Assembly (NCBI GenBank): GCA_913775315.1
Contig: CAJYIX010000015.1
Location: 1 to 44,746, forward strand
Length of the DNA: 44,746 bases
Direction of reading: 5' to 3'
DNA from: an uncultured Sphingomonas sp.
GTDB lineage: Bacteria; Pseudomonadota; Alphaproteobacteria; Sphingomonadales; Sphingomonadaceae
Below the pieces are notes generated by a model. It made no database searches and had not been told where the DNA came from. It saw nothing but the letters and a program-made list of their open reading frames with translations. Within the stretch, counting starts at the first letter, position 1; every line of letters starts with the position of its first letter. Of this stretch, positions 36,593-37,523 are shown in pieces. The position numbers and the translations under genes were made by a program.

Positions 36593-36652
36593 GCTTCGTA
36601 AAATCGAAGCGTGATTACAAGACTTGTTCTGCGGCCCCGCATGACTCATGTA
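36593..36652 (+). promoter_or_regulatory. Dyads and possible promoter upstream of the micro-ORF
   Basis: This region holds an inverted repeat, GCTTCG-TAAAAT-CGAAGC (36593-36610), and a perfect 11-base palindrome, CATGA-C-TCATG (36640-36650). A weak promoter-like pair also fits: TTGTTC at 36624 and CATGTA at 36647, 17 bases apart. The palindrome overlaps the proposed -10. All are candidates from inspection only. Confidence 0.3.
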
Positions 36653-36690
36653 TCGGGGGTGGCAGACGCCACACTCGTTCTTCAACCAGC

Positions 36691-36705
36691 GAAAGGAGGT
36701 GATCC
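36691..36705 (+). promoter_or_regulatory. Maximal Shine-Dalgarno sequence
   Basis: GAAAGGAGGTGATCC is, over all 15 bases, the reverse complement of the usual alphaproteobacterial 16S rRNA 3' tail (GGATCACCTCCTTTC). GGAGG is spaced seven bases from the ATG at 36707. No other start in the window has anything near this complementarity. Confidence 0.85.
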
Positions 36706-36706
36706 G

Positions 36707-36763
36707 ATGTCTCATGGTTCAGCAGTGAGGTCGGTTCAGTTCGTTCGGGAGACGCGCCGCTAA
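36707..36763 (+). CDS. 18-residue micro-ORF with extreme ribosome binding site
   Basis: Encodes MSHGSAVRSVQFVRETRR, ending in TAA. It has four Arg residues, no membrane segment and no recognised family. The case for translation is the 15-base Shine-Dalgarno match at ideal spacing, an ATG, and a downstream strong terminator that closes a self-contained unit of roughly 300 bases. It could be a functional microprotein, a leader peptide controlling the FMN reductase behind the terminator, or a ribosome-loading element in a regulatory RNA. The 112 bases between its stop and the terminator stem contain further small hairpins (for example GGGGGA/TTCCCC near 36780-36796) and nothing else recognisable. 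Confidence 0.6.
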   Translation: MSHGSAVRSVQFVRETRR

Positions 36764-36874
36764 GCCTGCGCGGTGAGGGCGGGGGATATTCTTCCCCAAT
36801 CAACGCCTTCGCCCAATCAGGCGCGCGGCCCGCATGGTCTCCCGCGTCGGAACATCCGGCCGCTGACCATGTCG

Positions 36875-36920
36875 GAGGCTGCCGGGCCCTTGGGAAAGGG
36901 TCCGGCAGCCTCTTTCATTT
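36875..36920 (+). terminator. Strong intrinsic terminator upstream of the FMN reductase
   Basis: A 16-base stem (arms 36875-36890 and 36897-36912, one G-U pair) with a TGGGAA loop is followed by TTTCATTT. It ends 15 bases before the next start codon. It either closes the micro-ORF transcript or acts as an attenuator for the gene behind it. Confidence 0.85.
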
Positions 36921-36935
36921 CTGGAGAACGCCGCG

Positions 36936-37523
36936 ATGGCGAAGCTGCTGGTTTTCTATGGCTCCTACCGGCGGGACCGGATGGGCATCCGGTTGGCCGA
37001 CTATCTGGTCGCCGGGTTCGCCGCGCGCCGGCACGATGTCGAGCTGATCGACGCGAGGGCGGTCGGGCTGCCGATGCTCGACCGGATGTACAAGGAATAT
37101 GCAAAGGGCGAGGCGCCCGCGGCCATGCAGGCGCTGGCGGACAGGATCGCCGCCGCCGACGGCTTCGTATTCGTGACCGGCGAATATAATTGGGGGATGC
37201 AGCCGGGGCTCAAGAACCTGACCGACCATTTCCTCGAGGAATGGTATTGGCGGCCCGCGGCGATCGCCAGCTATTCGGCCGGGCGCCTCGGCGGCGCGCG
37301 GGCGGCGACCGCGTGGCACGGGACGCTGTCGGAGATGGGCATGGTCGTCACGTCGAGCACGATCGGCGTGGGGCAGATCGGCGGCGCGCTCGATGCCGAT
37401 GCGCAGCCGACCGGCGAGGGCGGGGCGGCACTCGAGCGGAGCTTCCCGCGATTTGCCGCCGACCTCGAATGGTGGGTCGAGGCGGCGATGGCGCAGCGGG
37501 CGAAGGTCGCGCCGCCTTACTGA
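36936..37523 (+). CDS. NAD(P)H-dependent FMN reductase family protein
   Basis: A cytoplasmic flavodoxin-like reductase of 195 residues, expected to reduce FMN or quinone-like substrates with NAD(P)H. Motifs: the FMN phosphate loop LVFYGSYRRDRMGIRLADYL near the N-terminus and VTGEYNWGMQPGLKNLTDHF, the family's EYN-x(4)-PGLKN signature, at ~87-105. Then come SYSAGRLGGARAATAWHGTL and a helical end. The ATG has a GGAGAA ribosome binding site at spacing 8. It is directly preceded by a strong terminator, so it must have its own promoter within that unit or be expressed by read-through. The last seven bases overlap the convergent gamma-glutamyltransferase gene. Confidence 0.9.
   Translation: MAKLLVFYGSYRRDRMGIRLADYLVAGFAARRHDVELIDARAVGLPMLDRMYKEYAKGEAPAAMQALADRIAAADGFVFVTGEYNWGMQPGLKNLTDHFLEEWYWRPAAIASYSAGRLGGARAATAWHGTLSEMGMVVTSSTIGVGQIGGALDADAQPTGEGGAALERSFPRFAADLEWWVEAAMAQRAKVAPPY

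Follow-up and report, generated by a model that had tools for sequence, protein, structure and literature searches.

A structured RNA of the CC2171 kind, possibly gated by ribosomes, as a tentative reading of a micro-ORF locus in an uncultured Sphingomonas

Closest described systems and layout of the locus

The closest described relative of the locus analyzed here is CC2171 (Rfam RF01867), a Caulobacter sRNA which in the available text of the literature was found by name only, in papers on Rfam 15 and on Mesorhizobium huakuii. Its Rfam structure draws neither a reading frame nor SD-mimic pairing, and in it the Shine-Dalgarno (SD) sequence has no pairing beyond a 2-bp hairpin. A table in the M. 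huakuii paper lists a 215-nt stretch annotated RF01867, read from the footnote as an RNA-seq product, and expression of a CC2171 relative in that organism is taken here from this table footnote. Other systems share single properties with the locus. The extended Shine-Dalgarno motifs of S. aureus (PMC13009471) also pair with 16S rRNA beyond the canonical core, though in that study the extension is two extra base pairs, seen by cryo-EM on ordinary mRNA, whereas here about 14-15 bases are involved and the gene is sRNA-like and stands alone. Dual-function sRNAs and leader RNAs, for example rnTrpL of S. meliloti as far as its available description goes, likewise combine an sRNA with a short frame. 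Unlike RNAs of that kind, the element described here has a conserved frame but not a conserved peptide, and no downstream gene is common to its loci. Another parallel is presumably the pseudoknot of the rpsO (S15) mRNA and its 30S entrapment, where we take an SD-bound 30S likewise to meet a structure that blocks entry of the start codon; unlike that system, there is no protein ligand and no ribosomal protein gene at this locus. In the accessible portions of the literature on 30S decoys, extended SD sequences and sequestering RNAs (the original description of CC2171 was outside this scope), no RNA was described that stands alone and matches the 16S tail over its full length, and the letters GGAGGUGAUCC led in them to a match on YbeY and not on such an RNA design.

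The window, meaning the whole stretch of 44,746 nucleotides of an uncultured Sphingomonas sp. that was analyzed, contains at 36593-36920 a unit that a preliminary description had presented as a self-contained micro-ORF with a 15-base anti-16S ribosome binding site, an upstream dyad and a terminator about 112 bases after the stop. Reading the window directly, GAAAGGAGGTGATCC occupies 36691-36705, followed by G at 36706 and ATG at 36707. The 14-mer AAAGGAGGTGATCC (36692-36705, + strand) is therefore separated by a single base from the ATG of the 18-codon frame, which encodes MSHGSAVRSVQFVRETRR and ends in TAA at 36761-36763. The dyad, GCTTCG/CGAAGC at 36593-36610, lies upstream of the frame, and the terminator is also present, with a stem that we count as 17 bp (36875-36891 pairs with 36896-36912, with one G-U and a loop of 4) where 16 had been given. 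It starts about 112 bases 3' of the frame stop, and the T tract on its 3' side is weak (TTTCATTT). The window RNA is more stable than its shuffles (z -7.7). We propose that the unit may best be read as a structured sRNA gated by ribosome binding and not as a microprotein gene. Its features, all on the + strand, are as follows.

36623..36648, +, promoter-like box CTTG-N16-GACTCA, the likely -35/-10 region of the unit (pattern compared with shuffled upstream regions)
36683..36907, +, alignment with Rfam RF01867 (CC2171) over the whole model at a score under the threshold: 39.2 bits (gathering score 75), E 4.2e-7 on 291 bases
36691..36705, +, Shine-Dalgarno complementary to the 16S 3' tail over 15 bases (sequence; 16S tail of two same-genus genomes)
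36707..36763, +, 18-codon frame and stop; frame conserved, peptide sequence not (element comparison)
36713..36723, +, 5' strand of P2, a proposed long-range helix, CAUGGuUCAGC (covariation in other orders; absent from the window minimum-energy fold)
36729..36734, +, 5' strand of P3, a proposed helix, GGUCGG (alignment fold)
36746..36753, +, 5' arm of the inner hairpin, CGGGAGAC, within the frame (covarying pairs in the alignment fold; window fold too)
36837..36844, +, 3' arm of the inner hairpin, GUCUCCCG (alignment fold and window fold)
36856..36861, +, 3' strand of proposed P3, CCGGCC (alignment fold)
36862..36871, +, 3' strand of proposed P2, GCUGACCAUG, adjoining the 5' side of the terminator (alignment fold)
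36875..36912, +, intrinsic-terminator-like hairpin of 17 bp (sequence and window fold)

The default Rfam scan of the window gave no match. At a permissive threshold RF01867 aligned over its entire model (1-159 of 159) without reaching the gathering score. The 5' block CGAAAGGAGGUGAUCC..UGUCUCAU is the same as that of RF01867 save for two spacer/start positions, and the two RNAs are alike in the full-length alignment, in this shared block around AAAGGAGGUGAUCC...UGUCUCAU and, tentatively, in a closing helix beside the terminator. That closing helix is aligned in the window and is complementary and invariant in the alignment, while the single-sequence fold disfavors it by 6.3 kcal/mol. The differences are a score of 39.2 bits against the cut-off of 75 and a sphingomonad helix (CAUGGuUCAGC/GCUGACCAUG) and inner hairpin unlike those of CC2171. 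The inner part is mostly unaligned in the window, with the pairs of the RF01867 inner hairpins marked non-standard. The unit would thus be best called a divergent relative of CC2171 and not a formal member. The family itself is wider than the Rfam cut-off: an RF01867 search that detected Caulobacter vibrioides as a control matched 61 of 289 class genomes at E<=1e-3, only 9 of which pass the cut-off, and 54 of 61 genus genomes, with 1 passing.

Two types of relative occur within the genus. In 15 of the 61 genus genomes (L046, L223-L236) the top match is a canonical CC2171-type copy that spans about 150 bases and scores 59-77 bits, and the window carries the other type; one genome (G091) has both. 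Canonical copies have a relaxed SD (AAAGGAGGTGGTCG-ATG, GAAGGAGGTGATCG-ATG and similar) where the window has a perfect match. In the class search (G366, G136, G373) and the genus search (G796), some genomes have two to four RF01867 matches, either paralogues or weak extra matches.

Complementarity to the 16S tail and distribution of the motif

Natural SD matches are usually short. The 16S tail GGCTGGATCACCTCCTTTC then TAAGG, with the usual 16S end 5' of the tail, was found in two same-genus genomes among the 31 searched (the organism's own and 30 relatives), and the 16S end GGATCACCTCCTTTC of these two is complementary to all 15 bases of GAAAGGAGGTGATCC, which confirms the anti-16S SD of the preliminary description. 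The other 29 of the 31 genomes gave no match for the tail pattern. In the organism's own genome a pattern search of both strands did not find the tail, and a search of its assembly did not find a 16S gene, a weak negative since the same search missed 16S in 5 of 14 control genomes.

The 14-mer occurs once in its own genome, even with up to 1 mismatch allowed. Together with the spacer and ATG it was present as a single copy in 73 of 99 family genomes, which answers the earlier proposal to search sphingomonad genomes for motif plus frame, and a reversed control pattern had no match in the same 99. Motif plus ATG or GTG was present in 59 of 385 class genomes. In a sample spanning the phylum, with rows sorted by kinship, it was present in 45 of 86 alphaproteobacterial genomes (its own included) and 0 of 213 other Pseudomonadota. 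A longer pattern matched at least 120 stretches in named genomes. Among the 80 titles listed for these, those that give a genus or order belong to what we take to be Sphingomonadales, Rhizobiales, Caulobacterales, Rhodospirillales and Acetobacteraceae, and two are unspecified Proteobacteria bins. ATG was demanded by the family pattern, and ATG or GTG by the class, named-genome and phylum patterns.

To lessen this bias, the scan of the 385 class genomes with AAAGGAGGTGATCCNNNG placed no constraint on the first two start-codon bases. It gave 63 matches in 63 genomes, which are related and hence not independent matches, and all 63 read [AGT]TG (59 ATG/GTG and 4 TTG). Interchange of ATG, GTG and TTG at the start position is what selection for initiation predicts.

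Two trivial origins of the motif were rejected. Chance does not account for a single copy in its own genome, presence in 73/99 family genomes, 63/63 start codons and 0/213 occurrences outside Alphaproteobacteria. An antisense 16S fragment would read AGCC after GATCC where the window reads GATG, and the Rfam scan showed no rRNA match. A third idea is that the SD block acts as a sponge, titrating sRNAs with an anti-Shine-Dalgarno motif of the kind that SisA-D in Caulobacter are said to carry. An sRNA bearing CCUCC could pair with the block, but the match runs past CCUCC on both sides exactly along 16S and a sponge has no need of a start codon and frame, so that this explanation appears very improbable.

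Altogether 211 loci with the motif were reduced to 191 distinct elements, 186 of them long enough for a frame test. The 83 members of the sphingomonad type are defined by TCTCATGG after the start codon. Of 82 sphingomonad-type elements, 51 have a box of the form CTTG-N16-20-GA[ATC][TC]CA upstream, compared with 6 of 1640 shuffled upstream regions, and the position of the box and of the terminator in the window predicts a transcript that would start near 36660 and end at about 36915. One sphingomonad group (L002-L005 and similar) has a longer leader, the box ending 70-79 bases before the SD in 28 of the 51 box-bearing elements, compared with 43 bases in the window. The inverted repeat at 36593-36610, flanked by the divergent HAD gene on one side and the promoter-like box on the other, is a possible operator.

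The neighbors of the unit in the window are a HAD hydrolase gene on the opposite strand and an FMN reductase gene at 36936. Across the 191 loci no neighbor gene was common class-wide: the largest cluster of shared neighbor ORFs contained 21 loci downstream and 48 upstream, and these clusters are rough because the ORF caller picks mirror frames in GC-rich DNA. The preliminary description had also considered a leader, and the hairpin between the frame and the reductase gene could be that of a transcription attenuator for the latter. However, a largest downstream cluster of 21/191 and a strong hairpin intervening before the gene argue against a leader of a downstream gene, and we consider it extremely unlikely.

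Selection on start and frame, and the structure of the RNA

In 173 of the 186 distinct elements a ribosome in frame would meet its first stop at codon 15-27, compared with 32 and 58 in frames +1 and +2. The same holds for elements without TCTCATGG (94/103 versus 12 and 21 in the other frames), after related elements were thinned out (47/56 versus 10 and 7) and when only the non-sphingomonad elements left by this thinning are counted (39/47 versus 8 and 6, against a fraction of 0.23 in shuffles). Additionally, in all 43 aligned non-sphingomonad rows the length from the start codon to an internal mimic of the 16S tail (see below) is equal modulo 3, gap runs being only 3 (56) or 6 (9).

The peptide gives a different picture. 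In 33 independent pairs of the TCTCATGG type, substitutions after codon 6 were distributed 41/45/36 on codon positions 1/2/3, with 20 synonymous versus 74 non-synonymous codon changes, and 18 pairs of other elements gave 48/48/46 and 32 versus 79. This test is not clean, as RNA pairings inside the frame also constrain bases, but neither set of pairs (33 and 18) had a codon-position or synonymous bias and hence neither gave a sign of purifying selection on the peptide. It seems from these comparisons that translation of the short frame matters and its product does not. A kept start, stop and frame without a sign of selection on the peptide suggest that ribosome binding itself is probably what matters.

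These counts bear directly on the possibility of a small mRNA that encodes a functional microprotein, 18-26 residues in length. Such a gene would account for the ideal ribosome binding site and for the kept start, stop and frame, an N-terminal MSH is common (though one search pattern selected for MSH), and 33% of 54 new sORFs in S. meliloti ribosome profiling sit on annotated sRNAs. However, synonymous and codon-position bias are lacking, the residues in common fall on bases belonging to P2 or the mimic, and the peptide diverges between sphingomonads and other orders beyond its first residues. A microprotein is for these reasons quite unlikely, and a selected sequence for the abundant one suggested earlier finds no support in the flat codon positions.

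In five loci (L066, L132, L159, L171 and L084) the same SD block precedes frames of 56-59 residues that by eye resemble secreted proteins with a signal peptide. The first four are counted among the 83 sphingomonad-type members and are long frames of the Azospirillum kind, L132, L159 and L171 being titled Azospirillum. Pfam had no match for the three of these frames that were tested. The SD block has perhaps been taken over in these loci as the ribosome binding site of a longer gene.

The helix P2 is formed by the bases just 3' of the start codon and those just 5' of the terminator. Many other-order elements have CAUUGUC/GACAAUG at this place, alongside CAUCGC/GCGAUG, CAUUGCC/GGCAAUG and further variants, where sphingomonads have the helix given above. 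Only elements with a visible partner strand were considered, a filter that favors P2 and was passed by 75 sphingomonad-type and 59 other elements. Of these, 73 and 43 were aligned, the 2 and 16 left out being near-duplicates and divergent forms (L051-L054, L083 and L201 among the 16). In the 43-row alignment P2 is paired in 97.3% of cells and 3 of its 7 pairs are changed on both sides. The whole named structure has 20 double-sided cells versus 4.8 in shuffles, with 0 of 500 as high, and when the partner strand is slid by 1 to 3 columns pairing falls from 87.4% to 27-45%. Not all of the five whole-structure measures exceeded shuffles: further pair types did not (19 versus 17.1; 66/500), and another was borderline (12/500). 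Duplex scores of P2 do not discriminate from mononucleotide shuffles either (mean 20.9 versus 18.0, with 7% of elements above the shuffles' 99th percentile), because shuffles may choose any place, and the case for P2 is carried by its place beside the terminator and by covariation.

P2 is almost invariant in the 73-row sphingomonad alignment, where the row filter demanded a CCATG-like 3' strand and covariation was thus not obtainable. In the inner hairpin of the sphingomonads, double-sided changes occur at nine pairs, and at five of these they are seen in 18-35 of the 73 sequences. The minimum-energy fold of the window (-136.0 kcal/mol) keeps the inner hairpin and terminator but not P2, and forcing P2 gives -129.7 kcal/mol, 6.3 kcal/mol worse, at a pair probability of about 0.0003. 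Such energies ignore ribosomes, folding during transcription and tertiary contacts; P2 is disfavored in the window nonetheless. Taken together, a closing helix P2 would be supported by covariation outside sphingomonads and by invariance within them. The preliminary description had proposed that compensatory changes in stems would support an RNA and synonymous changes in codons a peptide: the former were found in P2 of other orders and in the inner hairpin of sphingomonads, and the latter showed no excess.

A second pairing concerns the frame itself. About half of the other-order elements carry within it CTGGATC-NTC-GCCTCC or a close variant. This segment looks like the 16S end CTGGATCACCTCC and complements the element's own SD. 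A GG[AG][TC][CT] core stands at in-frame places 47/50/53/56 in 53 of 103 elements, compared with 3-9 once these places are displaced by 1 or 2 bases. With the full 5-base core allowed at any place, the mimic was found in 67/103 versus 24% of shuffles; a looser rule found it in 95/103, but shuffles pass that rule at 65%. The base after GATCC is Watson-Crick to the mimic in 53 of 95 elements (permuted mean 34.5, maximum 48 in 5000 permutations), with A-U, G-C, U-A and C-G all occurring, and the next base is not convincing (59 of the 95 versus 51.6, maximum 62). Double-sided changes at two SD-mimic pairs depend on doubtfully aligned rows (L037, L041, L046). Against dinucleotide shuffles, the SD-mimic duplex outside the sphingomonad type has a z of about -1.5, with 46% of 78 and 48% of 25 elements beating 95% of shuffles, whereas within the sphingomonad type the mean z is -0.46 and 4% of 83 do so. 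In many sphingomonads a CACTTCC 5' of the P2 3' strand could serve as mimic; the window has ACATCC, which pairs poorly. The SD-mimic helix would either cross P2 or be incompatible with it.

Ribosome-linked readings of the element

The preferred explanation is a stand-alone gene for a structured sRNA of the CC2171 kind, present across Alphaproteobacteria, whose activity would be gated by ribosomes; we put its probability at roughly 0.46, somewhat short of even odds. The SD, whose match to the 16S tail is seen in the sequence, would cover the unpaired tail, with the start codon one base 3' and then the short frame. The first codons would form one strand of P2, closed by the bases just before the terminator, so that a 30S initiating translation would have to open this helix. 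A ribosome reading 15-27 codons would clear the 5' half of the RNA and be released before reaching the 3' strand and terminator. Translation may in this way toggle the RNA between closed and open forms, freeing the 3' strand for pairing with other RNAs, or may set the lifetime of the RNA. In about half of the non-sphingomonad copies the internal mimic of the 16S tail could be freed too, and the peptide would be a by-product. Against this reading, Schrader et al. 2014 (PMC4117421) describe Caulobacter ncRNA regions as mostly untranslated, two earlier ncRNAs being translated. The earlier proposal that the unusual 16S complementarity belongs to an RNA or leader engaging the 30S subunit is supported by conservation, and of the options given there direct interaction of an RNA with the 30S fits best.

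Two other readings also give the ribosome the central part. One is a decoy or trap, in which an abundant RNA holds idle 30S through a 14-15 bp duplex ending one base before the start codon, and initiation stalls. Complementarity that spans the whole tail and recurs across the class is what a trap would show, an SD fully paired to within one base of the start codon could well impede normal initiation, and as 75.4% of Caulobacter genes have no SD (PMC4117421), an RNA with such an extended SD would presumably meet little competition. However, a pure trap could do without a stop at a defined position and without a conserved frame, and the second copy type in the genus has the relaxed SD described above. 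We regard a trap as rather unlikely.

The other is a sensor of free 30S, drawn from the way in which one RNA combines an SD that matches the 16S tail from end to end with, in many lineages, a copy of the tail itself. The mimic and the real 16S tail would compete for the same bases, so that free 30S would open the RNA; translation of the peptide-indifferent frame would then hold it open, and the freed anti-Shine-Dalgarno segment could repress other messages. Such a sensor is doubtful, a shade more so than the trap; if it were real, gene expression throughout Alphaproteobacteria would be coupled through it to the supply of ribosomes. The count of mimics with a full core and the energy of P2 in the window make both the sensor and the ribosome-gated sRNA less likely, and the trap and the microprotein slightly more likely.

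The data presented here describe a single-copy RNA that keeps a full match to the 16S tail across orders and in which start and frame are selected and the peptide shows no sign of selection. This suggests that ribosome engagement is the function of the element. On this reading CC2171, a little-studied Rfam entry, would become a testable regulator linked to 30S availability.
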